Part shown: positions 7,133 through 34,735 of the stretch, piece after piece | How the letters are laid out: each line of letters starts with the position of its first letter | How positions within the stretch are numbered: position 1 is the stretch's first letter | Assembly (NCBI GenBank): GCA_027485795.1 | Contig: JAIXQK010000106.1 | Coordinates: 1-36,156, forward strand | DNA length: 36,156 nucleotides | DNA from: Oxalobacteraceae bacterium | GTDB taxonomy: Bacteria; Pseudomonadota; Gammaproteobacteria; Burkholderiales; Burkholderiaceae_D | Direction: 5' to 3' | Program-made: the position numbers and the translations under genes | The notes under the pieces: generated by a model | The model's input: only the letters and a program-made list of their open reading frames with translations | The model's database searches: none | What the model was told of the DNA's origin: nothing

Positions 7133-8287
7133 TCAGGGCAGACGATGACTTATGTTCAGCTTGCCTTCGCCACTGATCAGTTGCAGCAGTGTCGATGCCA
7201 GACGAGGCATATCACGCCATTCTACCGTTTTGCCCCGCGCCAGATCTGTGACGCCCGCCAGTAGCGGCGCAGCGGCGTTGAACTCGATCAGACGCAACTG
7301 CCGACAGTCGAGCACGATATGGTCAAGTTGTTTGGCGCCTGCGCGTAGTGATTCCAGTAACTCATCCACTGGGTAGCAGATTTGCTCCGGCAGCATCAGA
7401 TCGGAGACCGTCGCAACGTGATGCATCGCCAAGCCCATCGGTGCGGGGGGCGATAACTCGTAGGTCAGGCAGTAGGCCACGCAGGCATCTTCGTAGCTGA
7501 CCTCGTCGCCACTTACTCGCAGTAGCTCGATCAATAGTCGCCATGCGGCGTCATGCGCATCGCGTCGGCCTTGCTGGATTTCTGCGCGTAATAAGTCAAT
7601 CAAAGTCGCCGAGTACGCGATACGGATACCCTTTCCCTCCTGCTGCCAGCGCGAAAGCAGCGCTAGCATTTCGCTACAACCGGCGATATCAAGCTCGGTG
7701 ATGCTGCATAGATCAAGCGTTAGTTGCGAATGCGATGTTGCAGCCTGCGCAAGCTGTGCTAGGGCAGGTGTCGAGCTTCCTAGTAGCTTGCCGCGGAAAG
7801 CCAACAGCGGGGTCGACGAATTTGGAGCAGAGTGAGCTTGATGGTGGGTGCGCCATTGCGGCGGCGAAGTTTCGAAGCGTTCAGCGAAGCGCAGGGCCAG
7901 CGCATCGAAGTGGGCTTTGTCCTGATCGAAACCGGCAAGCTCAAGGAGCAGTTGCCATGCGATAGGCTCAGCGGGATCATCACTCACTTCGGCGACCGCT
8001 TCCAGCAAGATCGATGCAGCTGCGTGGGGCTGTCGATTCGCATACAGAATGCTGGCTTCATGAATGCGTTGCTCGACACTATTGCCGATCATGAGGCCGC
8101 TCTCGCCGCCGCTCTCACCGCTATGAACGCTATCGAAAAAGGGACCGATCTCTGCCGTGATCTCGGATTCGATTGCATCAATCTTGCGCGTGGTCGCTTC
8201 ACGTTCAGCCAGGGTGGCCTGACGGATTGAGCGCACATTTTTGATGGAGCCGGGAGCCTGCTTACTGAACAAATCGCGGAATTTCAC
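7133..8287 (-). CDS. Tandem STAS-like domain protein upstream of hslV
   Basis: The 384-residue product has no signal peptide or membrane segment. After a charged N-terminus ([13 protein letters not shown]) and a helical region of about 100 residues, two STAS-like modules can be seen. The first is at about 160-245, with a [23 protein letters not shown] strand-helix pattern broken here into its landmark pieces LDLCSI and DIAGCSEML. The second is at about 285-384, with [21 protein letters not shown] domains bind nucleotides or partner proteins in anti-sigma-antagonist and transport systems. No partner switch (kinase or phosphatase) is nearby. It lies in the hslVU operon region, so a link to protein quality control is possible but unproven. 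Confidence 0.7.
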
Positions 8288-18575: not shown

Positions 18576-19457
18576 CTAATCGTACACGGAGGGTATGCCT
18601 TCGGGCCGGGTCTTGAAGCGTTTATGTGACCAGAAATACTCGGACGGTGCTTGCTGAATCTGGTTTTCAATAAAGGTGTTCATGCGCCGGGTGGCGGCCT
18701 CAATATCATCCCCTGGAAAGTCCTCCCACGCCGCATGAAACTTCACCCGCCAGCCTTGGTAGTTGGGCCTGAATTGCGTGGTCACTGGAATCACTTGTCC
18801 CTGCGTTGCCGCTGCAAGGCGCGCAGGGGCTGTCAGCGTGGCTGCGGGCACGCCAAAAAATGGCACGAAGATCGACTCACGCGCACCAAAGTCCATGTCG
18901 GGCAGCATGAGAAATGGACGGCCACTGCGCATGGCTCGAATAATCGGCTTGATCCCGCCGCTACGCGACAACAAGAAGCGATCGGCTTCATCCTGCGTAG
19001 CGAACCTTGAGCGACCTTCGCGCAACGCTTGATCGAAAACTTTGCTGCGTTGCTGTGTGTAGATCGAGCAGAGTGGTCCCTGCATGGTAATTGCGACGCC
19101 TGCCACCTCCAGACAAACGAAATGCGGACATAAAAAAATAGTGGGCTGCTCAATCGACGCCTGGGTCGGTACGAAGGGATCAACTTCGATCAGTCGGCGT
19201 AGCCGCTTCGGCGATCCCCACCACAGAATGCCGCGCTCTAACACACTGCGCGCATAAGCCCGGAAATGGGCACGAGCCAATGCTTCACGCTCGTCCGCCG
19301 ACAGCGCGGGTAGACACAGCGTTAAATTCGTCAGCGTGATCTTGCGCCGCTCGCGCATGAGTAAAAACAGCAATTCGCCAAATGCTTCGCCGATGCGGCC
19401 GAGTATCGGTAAAGGTAACCAATGCAATAGCCAGATCACCCCAAGGATCAAGCGCAT
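18576..19457 (-). CDS. LpxL/HtrB-family lysophospholipid acyltransferase
   Basis: This is an inner-membrane acyltransferase of the lipid A late-acyltransferase family. I use the ATG at 19457 (MRLILGVIWLLHWLPLP), which has GGAG 7 bases upstream, giving 293 residues. A longer reading from 19589 would add 44 residues without family resemblance. The N-terminus is a membrane anchor. The catalytic motif appears as HFVCLE, that is HX4E instead of the common HX4D, a variant seen in some paralogues. PDMDFG and FFGVPAATLTAPARLA are conserved blocks. It is divergent from metK with a 240-bp gap. Whether it acts on lipid A, ornithine lipids or another acceptor cannot be told. Confidence 0.88.
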   Translation of the reverse strand: MRLILGVIWLLHWLPLPILGRIGEAFGELLFLLMRERRKITLTNLTLCLPALSADEREALARAHFRAYARSVLERGILWWGSPKRLRRLIEVDPFVPTQASIEQPTIFLCPHFVCLEVAGVAITMQGPLCSIYTQQRSKVFDQALREGRSRFATQDEADRFLLSRSGGIKPIIRAMRSGRPFLMLPDMDFGARESIFVPFFGVPAATLTAPARLAAATQGQVIPVTTQFRPNYQGWRVKFHAAWEDFPGDDIEAATRRMNTFIENQIQQAPSEYFWSHKRFKTRPEGIPSVYD

Positions 19458-19546
19458 TTCGACGCTCCGAGGACAATAAGCGACCGCGACGCTAACAAAA
19501 TGTAAAGCTCGGGAATTGGAATCACGGGAGAGTGGCGCAGGAGGCT

Positions 19547-19575
19547 TTGCTGATTTCGTGCAAGTTGCGTAAAAT
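19547..19575 (+). promoter_or_regulatory. Candidate metK promoter
   Basis: TTGCTG (19547-19552) and TAAAAT (19570-19575) are separated by 17 bp, the ideal spacing. The -10 matches consensus at 5 of 6 positions and the -35 at 3 of 6. Transcription would start near 19582, leaving a leader of about 116 bases before metK. Confidence 0.45.
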
Positions 19576-19697
19576 AACACGCGTTTCATCCGCCGAGTTA
19601 ACAGACAACTTGCGAGGCGGCCTACAAATTTCGCTAAAGCGTCGCAGGCTCACTGAGTTGACCGCGACATCGTGTTAATCAGTTTTTAGGAGCTTGC
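19575..19697 (+). promoter_or_regulatory. Structured metK leader, candidate cis-regulatory RNA
   Basis: Several pairings are visible. CCGCC (19590-19594) pairs with GGCGG (19616-19620) and encloses AGTT (19596-19599) with AACT (19607-19610). GTCGC (19641-19645) pairs with GCGAC (19664-19668) and encloses CTC/GAG (19649-19657). An outer TAACACG (19575-19581) could pair with CGTGTTA (19671-19677), but only if transcription starts further upstream than the promoter proposed here. TAGGAG at 19687-19692 is the ribosome binding site. It does not resemble SAM-I, SAM-II or the SAH riboswitch found before ahcY. Confidence 0.4.
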
Positions 19698-20861
19698 ATG
19701 TCCAACGAGTACTTGTTCACTTCCGAGTCGGTGTCCGAAGGTCATCCGGATAAAGTCGCCGACCAAATCTCTGATGCGATTCTTGACGCCATCCTGGAGC
19801 AGGATCCGCGCGCTCGCGTCGCCGCTGAAACCCTCTGCAACACCGGTTTGGTGGTGCTGGCGGGCGAGATCACCACGACGGCGAATGTGGACTACATCAA
19901 AGTCGCGCGCGATACACTGAAAGACATCGGCTACGACAACACCGACTACGGTATCGACTACAAAGGTTGCGCCGTACTGGTGGCATATGACAAACAATCA
20001 CCCGATATCGCTCAGGGTGTCGATGAAGGTAAAGGCCTTGATCTCGACCAAGGCGCTGGCGACCAGGGCCTGATGTTTGGTTACGCGTGTGATGAAACCC
20101 CTGATCTGATGCCTGCGGCGATTTACTACGCCCATCGTATCGTTGAGCGGCAGTCTCAACTGCGCAAGGATGGTCGACTGCCCTGGCTGCGTCCAGATGC
20201 CAAGTCGCAGGTCACGCTGAGATATGTCGACGGCAAGCCGGTTGCGATCGACACCATCGTGCTGTCGACGCAGCATGCGCCTGAAGTCGAGCACAAGCAG
20301 ATCGAAGAAGCCTCGATTGAAATGATCATCAAGCCAGTGGTGCCCGCCGAGTGGTTGAAGGACACGCGCTACTTGGTGAACCCGACTGGGCGTTTTGTGA
20401 TCGGCGGTCCGCAGGGAGATTGCGGCCTCACCGGGCGCAAGATTATTGTTGACACCTACGGCGGCGCAGCGCCTCACGGTGGCGGTGCGTTCTCGGGCAA
20501 AGATCCGTCGAAGGTCGACCGTTCGGCTGCCTACGCGGGTCGTTATGTCGCCAAGAACATCGTTGCCGCCGGTCTGGCATCCAAGTGCCAGATTCAAATC
20601 TCTTACGCGATTGGCATTGCCAAACCAACCTCGGTCATGGTGACCACCTTCGGTACTGGCAAGGTCAGCGATGAAAAAATCGAACAACTCGTGCGCGAGC
20701 ATTTCGATTTGAGACCAAAGGGCATCGTGCAAATGTTGAATCTCTTGCGTCCTATCTATCGCAAGTCGGCTGCTTACGGCCACTTTGGTCGCGATGAGCC
20801 GGAGTTCAGCTGGGAGCGCACTGACAAAGCAGCCGCGTTGAAAGCAGCTGCGGGTCTCTAA
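19698..20861 (+). CDS. metK: S-adenosylmethionine synthetase
   Basis: MetK makes S-adenosylmethionine from methionine and ATP. The 387-residue product has the expected length. Visible signatures are [18 protein letters not shown] at the N-terminus, the [15 protein letters not shown]-binding motif, and the phosphate-binding [19 protein letters not shown] segment. A GGAG-type ribosome binding site precedes the ATG. The gene begins a region holding ahcY and metF, so synthesis, recycling and remethylation of the methionine cycle are encoded together. Its long, paired leader suggests post-transcriptional control. Confidence 0.98.
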
Positions 20862-20871
20862 GATCGACTCA

Positions 20872-20904
20872 GCGTACGGGCAAGCGAAAAGCGACCCCGT
20901 ACGC
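20872..20904 (+). terminator. Hairpin after metK
   Basis: GCGTACGGG (20872-20880) pairs perfectly with CCCGTACGC (20896-20904) over 9 bp with a 15-base loop. It starts 11 bases after the metK stop. The following bases (ACGCTTTGG) contain only a short T stretch, so it is a weak intrinsic terminator or an RNA-end stabiliser. Confidence 0.5.
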
Positions 20905-21036
20905 ACGCTTTGGTTCCGCGTTAGAGCGCGATAGTTTTTCTGAACTAAGCCCGGTTAACGTCCTTGTTTCGCGACTGTTAATCGCGTCGCTGTTGCTACA
21001 GTCGGCCCCTTCGGGTTTACGTAGTAGCGACAGACT

Positions 21037-22713
21037 ATGGGCAGCAAAATCGCACGACGTTTCTTCAGCGTCGTCGCATCCGTAGTACTTGCGATGACTG
21101 TCGCAGGTGTTCCTCAAGCAGGTCAGCTTGATCAAACTACATCGAACGCACACCTGAGACGACACATCAGGCTACCGCAACTCGTGACGGAAGAGCCTAC
21201 GATAGAGCGACTGATCGTCACGCCCCACGCCATTCTCGGTGCCAGATTACATGCACAACTTAGCAGGGATGACGCGACGTATTTGAGTGCAGCCAGTAGT
21301 CAACACCTCGCCGTCGAACGCAAGCTGGGTAGTCGATCTCATTTATTAAAGCTGGCGCGGAAACTCACCCTGACGCAGGCGCGCGCGTTGGCAAACCGTT
21401 TGCAACAGACCGGTGAGCTGCAGATGGTGGAGTTCGATTTACTAATGCACGCGCAGGCCAGCACGCCGGATGATCCTGCTTATGCAGGGCCACCCGGTCA
21501 ATGGAGCTATTTCATGCCGACGATGGCGCAACCCGGGGGATTGAATTTGCCCGGTGCTTGGGACCTCACATTCGGCAGCGCAAGCGTCAATGTCGCCGTC
21601 ATCGACAGCGGTAGTCGTCCGCACATTGATTTGCAACCATCGTTACCGGGCTATGACTTCATTAGTAGCGTGCCGATGGCAAACGACAGCGATGGCCGTG
21701 ATGGCGACGCCACGGATCCGGGCGACTATGCTGCCGCGGGTGATTGCGGCGTCGGTAGCCCCGCCACCTCATCAAGCTGGCACGGTACCCATGTGAACGG
21801 CACGATTGCAGCGTTGATGAACAATCAGCGCTTCGGCACGGGTATCGCGCCGGGTGTACGAATTCTGCCGGTACGGGTGCTCGGTCGCTGCGGCGGTTAC
21901 TTGTCCGATTTAATCGATGCGCTGCGCTGGGCGGTAGGTATTGATGTCGCCGGTGTGCCGCATAACGCGAACCCCGCGCGCGTCATTAATCTTTCGCTTG
22001 GGGCGGTGGGCACCTGCTCCGCCTCGTTACAAAGCGCAATCGACGACGTGAATGCCAGAGGCGCGATCGTCGTCGCAGCAACGGGTAACGACAGCACCGC
22101 TCAGCTGCAACAACCGGCTAACTGCAATGGCGTGATTGCGGTGACGGCTCACACCATTGATGGCGATGTGGGTGATTACGCCAACATGGGTAGTCAGACG
22201 ACGATCAGTGCGCCGGGCGGTGGTTGTGGTGCGGCGTCAGTCAATTGCGTGGTGGGGCAGAGCGCTAATGGTGTCGCTATCTACTCGCTCGGCAATACCG
22301 GCGGCACGGTGCCCGCCGAGGATGGCGCTGCGCTCAAGTACGGCACCAGCATGGCTGTGTCCCACGTGGTGGGTAGTGTCGCGCTGATGCTGTCGCTGTC
22401 GCCTGCGCTGACGCGCGATCAAGTCGTCACACTGCTGCGGCAGACGGCCCGACCCTTCCCCGCAGGAACTGCTTGCACGCTGAGTGAGAACCAAGGGCTG
22501 TGCGGCGCAGGGATGCTGGATACCCGTGCTGCAGTGTTGGCGTTGGCAGACGCACCCAGCCCGCCGCCGCCAGCGCCTTCACAAGCGGTGCCGCAACAGA
22601 CCAGTGTTGGCGTATCCACCGCGTCACCCATGGGCGGCGGCGGCAGCATGGATAACGACACGCTGCTCATACTCTGCGCACTCTTGATTTTCGTTCGACA
22701 TCAACGCCGATGA
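21037..22713 (+). CDS. Secreted S8 (subtilisin-like) serine protease with GlyGly-type C-terminal sorting tail
   Basis: The 558-residue product has a signal peptide (about 1-29), a propeptide-like region to about 150, and a subtilase domain at about 165-505. The catalytic triad is visible: Asp190 in AVIDSG, His249 in WHGTH and Ser438 in GTSMA, with Asn351 in TGND as oxyanion residue. Cys pairs suggest disulfides. A Pro/Ala linker (about 506-530) leads to GGGG at 533-536, then a hydrophobic segment (about 542-553) and a basic end HQRR. This tripartite tail matches the GlyGly-CTERM sorting signal. The stop codon overlaps the rhombosortase start, strongly supporting an enzyme-substrate pair. In-frame TAG codons just before the ATG fix the start; the ribosome binding site is weak. 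The protease's own substrate is unknown. Confidence 0.92.
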   Translation: MGSKIARRFFSVVASVVLAMTVAGVPQAGQLDQTTSNAHLRRHIRLPQLVTEEPTIERLIVTPHAILGARLHAQLSRDDATYLSAASSQHLAVERKLGSRSHLLKLARKLTLTQARALANRLQQTGELQMVEFDLLMHAQASTPDDPAYAGPPGQWSYFMPTMAQPGGLNLPGAWDLTFGSASVNVAVIDSGSRPHIDLQPSLPGYDFISSVPMANDSDGRDGDATDPGDYAAAGDCGVGSPATSSSWHGTHVNGTIAALMNNQRFGTGIAPGVRILPVRVLGRCGGYLSDLIDALRWAVGIDVAGVPHNANPARVINLSLGAVGTCSASLQSAIDDVNARGAIVVAATGNDSTAQLQQPANCNGVIAVTAHTIDGDVGDYANMGSQTTISAPGGGCGAASVNCVVGQSANGVAIYSLGNTGGTVPAEDGAALKYGTSMAVSHVVGSVALMLSLSPALTRDQVVTLLRQTARPFPAGTACTLSENQGLCGAGMLDTRAAVLALADAPSPPPPAPSQAVPQQTSVGVSTASPMGGGGSMDNDTLLILCALLIFVRHQRR

Positions 22714-23282
22714 TGCTGCGCTCGCCTGCGTGGCGCTTGACCGTGGTGATTGCAACACTGAGCGTGCTTGCGAGTGTCACACCCAGCGCATTCAATGTGC
22801 TGGCTTGGCAGCGTGAGGCGATGGCGGGAGGTCAGTGGTTTCGGCTGCTCACTGGCCATCTCGTGCATCTCGACACCCATCACCTGCTCATCAATTTGCT
22901 CGGACTAGTGATCGTGACCGACTTGCTGCTGGTGCGCTGGCAATGGCGCTCACTGATTGGCTTGTTGCTCGGTAGTGCATTTGGTACCAGCGCCTTGCTG
23001 TGGTGGTTTGCCCCGGCATTAGTTTGGTATGCGGGGCTTTCAGGAGTGTTGCATGGGTTATGGTCGGGCGCTGCCCTGTGCGGCCTGCACCAAGTAAATC
23101 ACCAGCCAGAGCGCCGTTGGAGCATCTTGGCTTTATTGGCCTTGGCGCTCAAGCTTGGCTGGCTGAATCATCCATCCGGTTCAATGCCAGTAGTGCCATC
23201 TGCCCACCTTTTCGGCGCGATCAGCGGCTTGTTCTTTTCCCTATTTCATGGGCTCTGGCGGCGATTTTGCAAAATCGATTAA
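22710..23282 (+). CDS. Rhombosortase (rhomboid-family intramembrane serine protease for GlyGly-CTERM proteins)
   Basis: The 190-residue product is a polytopic membrane protein with about six hydrophobic segments. The rhomboid nucleophile is Ser111 in AGLSGVLHG, where the S-G-V-L-H-G form is characteristic of rhombosortases. The catalytic His is probably His166 in SAHLFGAISG. HHLLIN at 57-62 supplies the oxyanion-region His and Asn of rhomboids. Its start overlaps the stop of the S8 protease (ATGATG/TGA), so translation is coupled. It should cleave the GlyGly tail of the protease in the inner membrane and release it for further processing or transport. An ordinary housekeeping GlpG is unlikely because the protein is short and lacks the GlpG N-terminal domain. 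Confidence 0.87.
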   Translation: MMLRSPAWRLTVVIATLSVLASVTPSAFNVLAWQREAMAGGQWFRLLTGHLVHLDTHHLLINLLGLVIVTDLLLVRWQWRSLIGLLLGSAFGTSALLWWFAPALVWYAGLSGVLHGLWSGAALCGLHQVNHQPERRWSILALLALALKLGWLNHPSGSMPVVPSAHLFGAISGLFFSLFHGLWRRFCKID

Positions 23283-23293
23283 AATCGGAGGCT

Positions 23294-23356
23294 GCCAAGG
23301 AGCGTTGCGACGGATTTTCATCCGCCAGGCTTGGCAATCTGTGCAACGGCGCTCAC
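23294..23356 (+). promoter_or_regulatory. SAH (S-adenosylhomocysteine) riboswitch of ahcY
   Basis: All main parts of the SAH aptamer can be paired by hand. P1 is GCCAAG (23294-23299) with CTTGGC (23330-23335). An inner hairpin is CGGAT (23311-23315) with ATCCG (23320-23324). The pseudoknot is GAGCG (23300-23304) with CGCTC (23350-23354). The conserved runs GGAGCGTTGC, GCCAGGC and CAACGGCGCTCAC match the known motif. It ends 35 bases before the ahcY start. In characterised examples SAH binding turns the gene on, so that the inhibitory SAH is hydrolysed. Confidence 0.93.
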
Positions 23357-23391
23357 GTTACTTTTTTCGTGTTTAATGAAAGGAGGGCGTG

Positions 23392-24810
<1,419 letters not shown>

Positions 24811-30900: not shown

Positions 30901-31147
30901 TCAATACGCCCGAAGCCTAAAGCCCTATGACCAGTGGGGAAGCTCCAGATCTGCCAGCCAATCCACTTGATCTCGGTTCGTTCTGTGACCGTCATTGGAG
31001 GGATTTCAGCCCCGACTGCGTCGCCCCAGCGCAAGCTGTTATACAAAGGCCAAGGATCAAACGGCCGAGTCTGACGGGGCGTTTTACGAAACTGCGCCAC
31101 GCTGCCATACTTCTCACCATCCACCGAGATCCGCCAAGGAGAGACTG
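30901..31147. other. Intergenic region between cca and the oxidoreductase gene
   Basis: These 247 bp carry an AGGAGA ribosome binding site 7 bases before the next start. No promoter or terminator stands out. A minus-strand open frame (30849-31166) crosses it but overlaps both neighbours and is not supported. Confidence 0.4.
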
Positions 31148-34100
31148 ATGAATGCCCCACTCGCATCCCTGCACGCCTTGCAGCCGGAAGCGATTACCCT
31201 CGACGACAAGTACACCTTGGAGCGTGGACGGGTATTCCTGACCGGTACGCAGGCGCTGATACGGCTGCCAATGTTGCAGCGGCAACGCGACCTGAAGGCA
31301 GGTTTGAATACGGCGGGGTTCATCAGTGGTTATCGTGGCTCCCCACTCGGCAGCGTCGACCAGACCGCGGCCAAAGCGCAAAAATATCTCGAGGCGAACC
31401 ATGTGCGCTTCCAGCCAGGTGTGAACGAAGATCTGGCCGCCACCAGCATCTGGGGCACGCAGCAAGTCAATCTGTTTCCTGGTGCGAAATACGACGGTGT
31501 GTTTTCGATGTGGTACGGCAAGGGCCCGGGCGTTGATCGCAGTGGCGATGTGTTCAAGCATGCCAACGGCGCGGGTAGCGCCAAGCATGGCGGTGTGCTG
31601 GTACTGGCCGGCGATGACCATGCTGCCAAGTCGTCCACCAACGCCCACCAAAGCGAACACATTCTCAAAGCCTGCGGCATACCAGTGCTGTACCCGTCGA
31701 CGGTACAGGAGTATCTGGACTACGGCTTGCACGGCTGGGCTATGAGTCGTTACACCGGCTTGTGGGTGGCAATGAAATGCGTGACCGATGTCGTAGAGTC
31801 TGGCGCGACCGTGGACATAGATCCCGATCGTGTGCAGATCATGTTGCCGGACGATTTCGACATGCCTGCAGGCGGGCTGAATATTCGCTGGCCGGATGCG
31901 GTGCTGGATCAGGAATCTCGGTTGGTCAATTACAAGTGGTATGCCGCGCTGGCCTATGCGCGTGCCAATCAACTGAACCGCATCATCTGGGATAGCCCCA
32001 AACCACGTTTCGGCATTCTCAGCGCTGGTAAAGCGTATCTCGATACCCGTCAGGCTTTGGATGATCTGGGCATCGACGAAGAAGTCGCACGCGATATTGG
32101 TTTGCGTCTTTACAAGGTTGGCATGAGCTGGCCGCTTGAGGCTTCCGGTGTACGCGAGTTTGCGACCGGTCTGGAAGAAATTTTGGTGGTTGAAGAAAAA
32201 CGTCAGCTGCTTGAGTATCAATTAAAAGAAGAACTCTATAACTGGCGCGATGATGTGCGGCCGCGTGTGGTGGGCAAGTTTGATGATTCCGGCGAGTGGA
32301 GCAACTCGCGGCGTGCTGGACATGGTGAGTGGTTACTGCCCGCGACGTATGAACTAAACCCTACCTTAGTGGCGCGTGCAATTGCGGCGCGTATTTCAAC
32401 TTATTTCGCGGGTCATCCGGTTGAACAGCGTGTGCGCGAGCGCCTGGCATTCATAGAGGCGAAAGAAGACACACTCAAAGTCACCAAACCCGACCCGCAA
32501 AAAGATCGTATTCCCTACTTTTGCTCCGGCTGTCCGCACAATACCTCTACCCGTGTACCTGAGGGTAGTCGTGCGCTAGCGGGCATTGGTTGTCACTACA
32601 TGGCGCTGTGGATGGATCGCTCGACGGTCACAGCAACCCATATGGGTGCCGAGGGTGTCACCTGGATTGGTGAGTCACCGTTTACAGAAGAGTCGCATGT
32701 ATTCGCCAATATTGGCGATGGTACTTACTACCATTCAGGCTTGCTGGCGATACGTGCTGCGGTTGCGGCCAAGGTCAGCATGACCTACAAAATTTTATTC
32801 AATGATGCGGTCGCCATGACCGGCGGTCAGACACATGATGGTCCGCTCGACCCGGCGATGATCTCGCGTCAAATTGCTGCCGAAGGTGTAAACCCGATTG
32901 TCGTGGTGACCGATGAGCCCGATAAATATGCGGCTGATACCGAGTGGGGTGCCGGGGTCACGATACGCCACCGTACTGAGCTTGATGCGGTACAGCGTGA
33001 GCTGCGTGAAATCAAAGCAGTCTCCGCCATCATCTATGACCAGACCTGTGCTTCTGAAAAACGTCGGCGTCGCAAGCGCGGCGCCTATCCGGATCCGGCC
33101 AAGCGCACCGTCATCAATGAAAGCGTGTGTGAAGGTTGTGGTGATTGCAGCGCGCAGTCGAATTGCCTGTCAGTCGAGCCACTTGAAACAGAGCTTGGCC
33201 GTAAGCGTCAGATTAATCAATCTACCTGCAATAAAGACTTCTCCTGCGTGCAGGGTTTTTGCCCGAGCTTCGTCACTGTGGAAGGTGGCCAGTTAAGAAA
33301 GCCGAAAAAAGCAGCCGGTAAAGACAGTAACCAACCCAGTGCGTTCGAGCGCGCGCAAGCTTTGCCCTTGCCTACCTTGAGTTCACTCGAACAGCCGTTC
33401 GGCGTGCTAGTGACTGGTATCGGTGGCACCGGTGTCGTCACCGTCGGGCAGATACTTGCCATGGCCGCGCATGTGGCGGGTAAGGCGTGCACCGTGCTTG
33501 ATATGAGTGGTCTGGCACAAAAAGGTGGGCCAGTGATGTCGCATGTGCGCTTGGCTGATTCAGATGCGCATATTTTTTCTACGCGTGTCGGTACTGGTGC
33601 GGCTGACTTGCTGATTGGCTGTGATGTACTGGTCGCTGCCAGCAAAGACGCAATATCGCGTATGCGTCAGGGCCGCACACACGCTGTAGTAAATGCCACC
33701 TTGGCACCCACTGCAGCTTTTGTAAAAAACCCGGATTGGGTTTATCCGGATGCGGCGTCGGTTGAAGCAATTCGCACAGCCTGCGGTGAGAACAATGTCG
33801 ATGCGGTACAAGCAGGAAAGATTGCCACCGCGCTAATGGGGGACTCCATCGCAACCAATATGTTCATGCTTGGCTATGCCTGGCAGCGAGGTTGGGTACC
33901 GTTACCCGAGTCAGCGCTGATGCAAGCGATCAAGCTGAATGGTGTGTCGGTTGACTTTAACCAGCAATCATTTGCATGGGGTCGACTCGCTGCGCATGAT
34001 CTTGCAGCGCTCGAGCAATCTTTGAATGCGCAATCGCCGGCGCAAGTGATTGCCTTCAAGCGTAAACAATCGCTCGATGAGTTGATTACCCACCGCACAG

Positions 34101-34735
34101 AATTTCTTACGCAATACCAGAACGCCAGCTATGCACAGCGTTATCACAGTTTTGTTGAGCGTGTTCGCGCAGATGAGCGACGTGTGGTCGGCGAAAGCAG
34201 TAGTTTGCAGCTGACTGAAGCGGTAGCGCGTTATTTATTCAAGCTGATGGCGTACAAAGATGAGTACGAAGTCGCACGACTGCATAGCGATCCTGCATTC
34301 AAAGCGCGCATCGCGACAATGTTTGAAGGTGACTACGAGATCAAGTACCACCTTGCGCCACCATTGCTCTCCAAACGCGATGAAAAAGGCCACCTGATCA
34401 AGCAGCCTTACGGTAGTTGGGTCGGTAAGGTGTTCCCAATCCTCGCCAAACTGCGCTTCCTGCGCGGTAGTTTGTTTGACCCGTTTGGTCATACCGAAGA
34501 ACGCAAGACCGAGCGTGCGCTGATTGAGCAGTATTGCGCCACCATCACGTCGCTATGCGTTTCACTGGATGCTAGAACCGTGTCCTTGGTTACAGAGATC
34601 GCGCGCATACCAGAAGAGATCCGCGGCTATGGGCATGTGAAGGAGCGTCACCTGCGCAATGCAAAAGAAAAAGAGGCGAAGCTGTTAGCGCAACTGCAGG
34701 CGTCACCAGAACAGACAGATCGACATGCGGCTTGA
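31148..34735 (+). CDS. Fused indolepyruvate:ferredoxin oxidoreductase family protein (IorA-IorB type)
   Basis: This is a single-chain 2-oxoacid:acceptor oxidoreductase that decarboxylates 2-oxo acids (typically indolepyruvate or other aryl/branched types) to acyl-CoA. I use the ATG at 31148, which has AGGAGA 7 bases upstream, giving 1195 residues. The N-terminal pyrimidine domain has SGYRGSPLG. The thiamine-pyrophosphate domain follows, with GIGCHYM and GDGTYYHSG then NDAVAMTGG. An iron-sulfur segment has Cys661, Cys664, Cys667 and Cys673, with more Cys in CNKDFSCVQGFC. The gamma domain has GIGGTGVVTVGQ, and the C-terminal region belongs to the DUF6537-like tail. Fusion of alpha and beta chains is usual in betaproteobacteria. 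Substrate and electron acceptor are inferred from the family. Confidence 0.93.
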   Translation: MNAPLASLHALQPEAITLDDKYTLERGRVFLTGTQALIRLPMLQRQRDLKAGLNTAGFISGYRGSPLGSVDQTAAKAQKYLEANHVRFQPGVNEDLAATSIWGTQQVNLFPGAKYDGVFSMWYGKGPGVDRSGDVFKHANGAGSAKHGGVLVLAGDDHAAKSSTNAHQSEHILKACGIPVLYPSTVQEYLDYGLHGWAMSRYTGLWVAMKCVTDVVESGATVDIDPDRVQIMLPDDFDMPAGGLNIRWPDAVLDQESRLVNYKWYAALAYARANQLNRIIWDSPKPRFGILSAGKAYLDTRQALDDLGIDEEVARDIGLRLYKVGMSWPLEASGVREFATGLEEILVVEEKRQLLEYQLKEELYNWRDDVRPRVVGKFDDSGEWSNSRRAGHGEWLLPATYELNPTLVARAIAARISTYFAGHPVEQRVRERLAFIEAKEDTLKVTKPDPQKDRIPYFCSGCPHNTSTRVPEGSRALAGIGCHYMALWMDRSTVTATHMGAEGVTWIGESPFTEESHVFANIGDGTYYHSGLLAIRAAVAAKVSMTYKILFNDAVAMTGGQTHDGPLDPAMISRQIAAEGVNPIVVVTDEPDKYAADTEWGAGVTIRHRTELDAVQRELREIKAVSAIIYDQTCASEKRRRRKRGAYPDPAKRTVINESVCEGCGDCSAQSNCLSVEPLETELGRKRQINQSTCNKDFSCVQGFCPSFVTVEGGQLRKPKKAAGKDSNQPSAFERAQALPLPTLSSLEQPFGVLVTGIGGTGVVTVGQILAMAAHVAGKACTVLDMSGLAQKGGPVMSHVRLADSDAHIFSTRVGTGAADLLIGCDVLVAASKDAISRMRQGRTHAVVNATLAPTAAFVKNPDWVYPDAASVEAIRTACGENNVDAVQAGKIATALMGDSIATNMFMLGYAWQRGWVPLPESALMQAIKLNGVSVDFNQQSFAWGRLAAHDLAALEQSLNAQSPAQVIAFKRKQSLDELITHRTEFLTQYQNASYAQRYHSFVERVRADERRVVGESSSLQLTEAVARYLFKLMAYKDEYEVARLHSDPAFKARIATMFEGDYEIKYHLAPPLLSKRDEKGHLIKQPYGSWVGKVFPILAKLRFLRGSLFDPFGHTEERKTERALIEQYCATITSLCVSLDARTVSLVTEIARIPEEIRGYGHVKERHLRNAKEKEAKLLAQLQASPEQTDRHAA

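Follow-up and report, generated by a model that had tools for sequence, protein, structure and literature searches.

A subtilase with a GlyGly-CTERM-like tail and its probable dedicated rhombosortase at the metK-ahcY site of an Oxalobacteraceae bacterium

The stretch of DNA analysed here (the window, 36,156 nucleotides; contig G000:C180 of a source genome of 3.24 Mb in 183 contigs, 95.4% complete) encodes two overlapping genes that very probably form a dedicated rhombosortase/GlyGly-CTERM-type pair: the enzyme would cut the tail of the neighbouring, Sec-exported subtilase, and the two genes appear to be inherited and lost as a unit. An earlier, sequence-only reading had placed both open reading frames exactly, including the overlap of stop and start; the subtilase stop and the rhombosortase start have the tetranucleotide ATGA in common (ORF coordinates 22713 and 22710). 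The flanking genes are taken to be metK and ahcY; these names, and that of metF below, come from recognition of the sequences and not from HMM searches. The features concerned are the following.

19698-20861, + strand: metK, upstream flank, in synteny in relatives
21037-22713, + strand: subtilase (S8) ORF, 558 aa
22633-22710, + strand: GlyGly-CTERM-like tail of the subtilase (GGGG at residues 533-536, acidic residue at +5, short hydrophobic helix, RHQRR end)
22710-23282, + strand: rhombosortase ORF, 190 aa
23280-23285, + strand: TAAAAT, overlapping the rhombosortase stop, putative -10 element of the transcript that carries the SAH riboswitch and ahcY
23291-23361, + strand: SAH riboswitch (RF01057, 58.5 bits, gathering cut-off 37), ahead of ahcY and not part of the pair
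23389-24810, + strand: ahcY, downstream flank, in synteny in relatives and fitting with the SAH riboswitch

Two further observations concern the surroundings. By metK there is one copy of an LpxL/HtrB-type acyltransferase gene in the window (18576-19589) and in G001, G009 and G020; a tandem pair of such genes adjoins metK in many genus relatives. Positions 30995-34735 hold a single-chain gene of the indolepyruvate ferredoxin oxidoreductase family (NF009588, 1850.9 bits).

By sequence and by predicted structure, the second gene is a member of the rhombosortase family. Its 190-residue product scores 103.8 bits against TIGR03902 (curated cut-off 84; 104.3 bits in the genome scan), which bears out the family assignment that the sequence-only reading had proposed to check with this model, and 27.9 bits only against the GlpG model TIGR04239, with its cut-off of 250. 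TIGR03902 has one match in the source genome; it also gave matches in all 14 control genomes, none of them over the cut-off. The rhombosortase-type motif GLSGVLHG, already picked out from the letters, occupies residues 109-116, and the active-serine signature of the window protein, ALVWYAGLSGVLHGL, agrees with the peak peptide QLLGYVGLSGMLHGL given in the consulted part of PMC3237569. The dyad of S111 (in GLSG) and H166 is fully conserved in two alignments, one with 15 and one with 32 sequences, and the rhombosortase profile could be aligned to GlpG, in keeping with a rhomboid fold that carries a Ser/His dyad. The AlphaFold2 model is of high confidence (pLDDT 94.3); its PDB matches at E <= 0.001, 34 in number, all belong to GlpG, the best with a TM-score of ~0.70.

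The first gene had been described as a secreted subtilase with Asp190, His249 and Ser438 in its active site, and the family and the triad hold: the protein scores 147.6 bits against PF00082 (cut-off 21.8), which places it in peptidase family S8, and the triad D190, H249 and S438 is the same in the window protein and in all 13 relatives aligned with it. Its parts are, in order, a signal-like hydrophobic N-terminal helix (residues 2-24), a propeptide-like domain (~55-139), the catalytic domain, a Pro/Ser/Thr-rich linker and the GlyGly-type tail. The N-terminus is hydrophobic by hydropathy, and the helix at 2-24 is predicted with low confidence. The AlphaFold2 model of the subtilase, weak overall (mean pLDDT 57.3) with a confident propeptide-like domain and a terminal helix of moderate confidence at 541-557, was used for the order of the parts only. 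Among the solved relatives that score best are 5yl7, 7w2a and the AprV2/BprV group.

With 558 residues, the window protein is shorter than its genus relatives, which measure 724-736 aa counted from their first start codon. In all three relatives tested, a PKD domain (PF22352) and an Ig-like domain (PF05345) score over their cut-offs between the catalytic part and the tail; neither was found in the window subtilase by domain search, the alignment has a gap there, and the Pro/Ser/Thr linker stands where the relatives have these domains. Their absence may stem from an assembly error. For the window subtilase and that of G020, dN/dS is 0.18 over 440 shared codons, with 0.08-0.13 in four other S8 pairs and 0.19-0.32 in four rhombosortase pairs for comparison; the short subtilase looks to be under constraint, its tail retained. 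Most relatives, unlike the window subtilase, weakly match the rhombosortase-dependent and myxosortase-dependent M36 models of NCBIfam (11/14 and 10/14, respectively), and these matches may come from the Ig-like domains.

Assignment of the tail rests on architecture, conservation and neighbourhood, because the GlyGly-CTERM model TIGR03501 (cut-off 15.5 bits) is silent: the window subtilase is unreported at E <= 10 in the protein scan as well as in the genome scan, and so are all 13 relatives. The tail is therefore termed GlyGly-CTERM-like and is not counted as a TIGR03501 member; on this point the sequence-only reading, which had put forward the same model as a check, was not borne out. The C-terminus reads GGGG-SMDNDTLLILCALLIFVRHQRR. 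All 14 aligned tails, that of the window included, share an invariant GGGG, an acidic residue at +5 and the succession of glycine motif, transmembrane helix and basic C-terminal cluster (alignment and hydropathy); the ending noticed earlier (GGGG, helix, HQRR) is thus present and conserved in its build.

For the source genome, a one-target system is the best reading, short of proof. The earlier suggestion to count other GlyGly-tailed proteins led to one detected tail of the genus type. A tail model of 32 positions, built from the tails of the 13 genus carriers and of G022, recovers the window tail (E 1.1e-15), and the next best match in the source genome has an E-value of 1.37. Each of the 13 genus carriers yields one match at E <= 1.8e-10, as expected by construction; since the model was built from those tails, its informative part is the absence of further matches. 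Across the 21 genus genomes, the sole extra match below E 0.3 is one of E 0.002 in G007, which sits on the strand opposite an ORF presumed to be DksA-like. Seven tail matches at E <= 0.01 were found in a family sample of 116 genomes (3 of the 13 genus carriers among them), all adjoining a rhombosortase gene; four are sequences within the model and three lie outside it. The model is narrow, with no match in 11 of the 18 family genomes that have a rhombosortase over cut-off, several of which show glycine tails next to that gene, and divergent further targets in the source genome could therefore be missed. The second S8 homologue of the source genome (C148) has no glycine tail. Two sub-cut-off TIGR03501 matches in this genome were considered as targets and rejected: one is an internal stretch of a polytopic protein, the other the end of a small protein, which we take to be an ElaB/DUF883-like tail anchor.

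The association of the two genes extends through the genus and beyond. A rhombosortase scores over cut-off in 13 of the 21 genus genomes, one apiece, and an S8 gene adjoins it in every one of the 13; metK and ahcY flank the two genes in 12 of them, the contig of G012 stopping before metK. (In G012, repeat units resembling ACGGTTTGCACCGCTTCGATGA span the rhombosortase stop codon; L037, ~7511-7612.) The family sample contains a rhombosortase over cut-off in 18 of its 116 genomes, with an adjoining S8 homologue in 14/18 and with S8 on the 5' and ahcY on the 3' side in 12/18; metK was also seen in six of these twelve (G000, G003, G014, G022, G060 (L144) and G074 (L114)), the remaining loci being too short or cut. 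In G027 and G092, the S8 gene is convergent with the rhombosortase, and neither metK nor ahcY lies beside it in the stretch examined. G102 and G111 have a different neighbour whose end fits the tail pattern used in this analysis; these frames, of 339 codons at L226 (G111) and 290 codons at L228 (G102), have a GGD/GGG-type tail and represent a different likely substrate. G077 and G079 showed no convincing tailed neighbour within 1.5 kb of the rhombosortase.

The single window rhombosortase, used as query against genome contigs, found no relative; an alignment query gave 461 rhombosortase loci, of which the best 80 were examined. S8 adjoins the rhombosortase in 17 of these best 80. Fifteen had already been counted (12 from the genus, plus G060, G068 and G074); two are new, namely L133, a Nitrosomonadales MAG that has the full order metK-S8-rhombosortase-ahcY-metF, and L119, a Gallionella MAG that has only the metK side. 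For the remaining 63 of the best 80, no match to S8, metK or ahcY appeared in the flanks examined. G034, which belongs to another family of the order, has three S8 homologues, all with glycine tails (L047, L096 and L105, on C28, C15 and C6, respectively); one is convergent with a rhomboid gene that, at 81.5 bits, falls just under the cut-off, and two are on other contigs. By its gene content, G034 would be a many-to-one relative of the window pair.

These distributions make it very unlikely that the two genes are chance neighbours and the S8 protease no substrate of the rhomboid. Such a reading could point to the silence of TIGR03501; it is opposed by the joint presence or absence of both genes at the metK-ahcY site, by the S8 homologue that adjoins the rhombosortase gene in 14 of the 18 family genomes and by the control genome G035, where no TIGR03902 match was found at E <= 0.001 and the S8 homologue (E 3.6e-60) ends in CBM5/12, with no glycine tail.

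A possible rhombosortase start codon lies at -4 or -1 of the S8 stop in 9 of the 13 genus carriers. In G003, G008 and G016, such codons follow only 13-67 nt or more downstream of the stop, and G004 has possible starts at -11 and +31. The sequence-only reading had taken the overlap as a sign of strict one-to-one expression; the overlap itself recurs, but 'strict' does not fit these four genomes. Its notion of a one-to-one dedicated pair agrees with the one rhombosortase and the one tail detected; adjacent pairs of this kind were described in 2011.

On comparison with its relatives, the pair appears to be an old unit at an ancestral betaproteobacterial metK-ahcY site, inherited and lost together. 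Eight of the 21 genus genomes lack a rhombosortase match, and to count them as eight absences was rejected, since only G001, G009, G010 and G019 have closed empty sites, with 117, 117, 250 and ~285 bp, respectively, from the metK stop to ahcY. Both pair genes are absent from all four, and metK and ahcY persist. In G020, the S8 gene runs into the contig end, with 92% identity to the window protein over residues 1-440; in G005, G011 and G013, the metK-ahcY interval is unassembled. No S8 match was found elsewhere in G001, G009 or G010 at E <= 0.001. On a core tree (FastTree of metK, ahcY, metF and a neighbouring gene, with 62% of columns for G019, 31% for G020 and some weak nodes), the empty sites fall at three places, each next to carriers: G010 with G015 (support 1.00), G019 with G016 (0.96), and G001 with G009 on a branch beside the group of G000, G020 and G005 (the last unassembled at the site).

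The interval of G019 reads SSGSLWRALRWACERRRIFD-stop, which resembles the end of a rhombosortase. Compared with 15 rhombosortases, this stretch scores higher than the best of 300 shuffles with five of them (score/best shuffle: G003 57/35, G004 53/47, G008 53/48, G016 46/42, G018 37/36) and does not do so with the other ten; G003, G004, G008 and G016 form G019's own clade on the core tree. The stretch is likely the 3' remnant of a rhombosortase gene, and the history is best read as at least three losses of the two-gene unit.

In the sequence-only reading, the pair had seemed as if inserted between metK and ahcY, and the 117 bp from the metK stop to ahcY in the near relatives G001 and G009 would suit a recently inserted mobile cassette. 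The comparison of this interval among relatives, which that reading had itself recommended, shows the pair in place in 12 of the 13 genus carriers and four closed sites empty, and leaves such an insertion scarcely credible: the Nitrosomonadales MAG has the identical site, the family sample repeats the order of S8 and ahcY about the rhombosortase in 12 of 18 genomes (with metK in six of the twelve), the S8 tree shares its main groups with the core tree (the weakly placed G012 and the outgroups apart), and G019 retains its likely remnant. The insertion hypothesis was rejected on synteny, trees and this remnant, and the loss of an inherited unit is retained.

Between the rhombosortase gene and ahcY lies the SAH riboswitch, which is absent from the sequence-only reading. 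Eleven of the 13 genus carriers have a TARAAT hexamer that overlaps the stop codon of the rhombosortase gene, and at all four empty sites the hexamer stands 9-10 nt ahead of the conserved riboswitch start CAAGGAGCG (10 nt in the window). We propose that it is the -10 element of ahcY; with the overlap in 11/13 and its retention at the empty sites, the last letters of the rhombosortase gene may serve at the same time as promoter for the gene that follows. A scan of window positions 20700-23500 for sigma-70 consensus promoters gave 0 sites and lends the -10 reading no support. The long-lasting neighbourhood with metK, riboswitch and ahcY could suggest that the pair is functionally tied to the methyl cycle, for example by SAH co-regulation. 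This is extremely unlikely: as the riboswitch lies 3' of the pair and the promoter-like hexamer at the rhombosortase end, the riboswitch would control ahcY only; moreover, the G034 pair is ~60 kb from ahcY, the pairs of G027 and G092 show neither gene beside them in the stretch examined, and metK and ahcY remain where the pair is lost.

The rhombosortase most likely trims the tail of the adjacent subtilase. The two genes would be transcribed as one unit, and the subtilase, exported by Sec, would be held in the inner membrane by its C-terminal helix with the glycines outside; the rhombosortase (S111/H166) would then cut at or directly after the glycine run, and the processed protease may receive a lipid and reach the cell surface. 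This mechanism is modelled on the biochemistry of VesB, as set out in the consulted parts of Gadwal and others 2018 (PMC6219818). Alternatively, the rhomboid could merely shed the protease, which would then be free in the periplasm or the medium and not anchored again by a lipid; this is unlikely. Rhomboids are proteases, GlpG cuts the linker of VesB and releases the protease when RssP is missing (PMC13393428, in the parts used here), and even in V. cholerae it is not shown that the rhombosortase is itself the transamidase (PMC6219818, likewise in part); yet the rhombosortase model gives the window enzyme 103.8 bits and the GlpG model 27.9, and rhombosortase-processed VesB bears ethanolamine-type mass additions and is largely retained at the surface (same part of PMC6219818).

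In the VesB model, sorting to the surface is coupled to a type II secretion system (T2SS). Presence of the T2SS was judged from two components, GspD and GspE, both of which score over cut-off in the source genome (598.5 and 690.2 bits). In the genus, GspD is over cut-off in 19/21 and GspE in 16/21 genomes; G013 and G017 are truncated at contig ends, and G016 is split. Neither component is over cut-off in the closely related G003 (rated 100% complete) and G004 (94%), which retain the pair, and the T2SS step can therefore not be assumed; contigs may be missing, the genes may be divergent, or the pair may act without a T2SS. In the available parts of PMC13393428, the Ig fold of VesB acts as a secretion signal in V. 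cholerae, and it is this fold, not just the GlyGly tail, that VesB requires to cross the outer membrane. If this role holds here, the window subtilase needs another signal or stays inside. The genus pair could work without the usual surface export, in which case the lipid-anchored protease would remain in the periplasm or on the inner membrane; this is unlikely. It draws on G003 and G004, where GspD and GspE were not found, and on the window lineage, whose protease lacks the PKD and Ig-like domains that might, as in VesB, bear the T2SS signal; its weight is lowered because both GspD and GspE are present in G011 (75% complete), a genome that falls with G004 on partial metK data.

The pair belongs to an already described class of one enzyme with one substrate. 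Dedicated rhombosortase/target pairs were defined by Haft & Varghese 2011, with adjacency in 16 of 21 single-target genomes (PMC3237569); among the examples in the parts considered here are Ralstonia, Cupriavidus, Marinobacter and Anaeromyxobacter (section 15, Table 3). As the concept is known, the value of the window pair lies in its use as test material and not in a new kind of system. No published description of this locus was found in the literature searched, and no wider claim is made; the sections of PMC3237569 examined do not name the window lineage, the metK-ahcY site or the window S8 protease. A pair of one enzyme and one substrate offers a simple setting for what a rhombosortase needs in its substrate and how it acts, and natural variants are at hand in the genus, where the same tail can follow either two spacer domains or a linker alone, T2SS genes are detected in some carriers and not in others, and sister species have lost both genes of the pair.

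Among known systems, E. coli GlpG has the same rhomboid fold and Ser/His dyad; the window protein differs from it in matching the rhombosortase model and not that of GlpG, by the scores given above. Shewanella baltica OS195 has GlyGly-CTERM on PF00082 proteases (S8/S53), as in the window, but, according to the part of PMC3237569 used, ten GlyGly-CTERM proteins in contrast to the one detected in the window genome. VesB with RssP of Vibrio cholerae shares with the window pair a secreted serine protease, a tail of glycines, helix and basic residues behind a linker, a rhombosortase and T2SS markers in the genome. According to the consulted parts of the VesB literature, VesB is a trypsin-like protease and V. 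cholerae has six GlyGly-CTERM proteins, VesB included, whereas the window has a single S8 protease next to an enzyme of its own; VesB also has an Ig fold, whereas the window copy is without the PKD and Ig-like domains that its relatives have. The dedicated systems of Haft & Varghese, as far as the sections considered describe them, differ from the window pair in its tail, which TIGR03501 leaves unreported; they agree with it in having one rhombosortase and one detected, adjacent target (divergent tails could remain in the window genome), the target ending in a glycine motif, a helix and basic residues.
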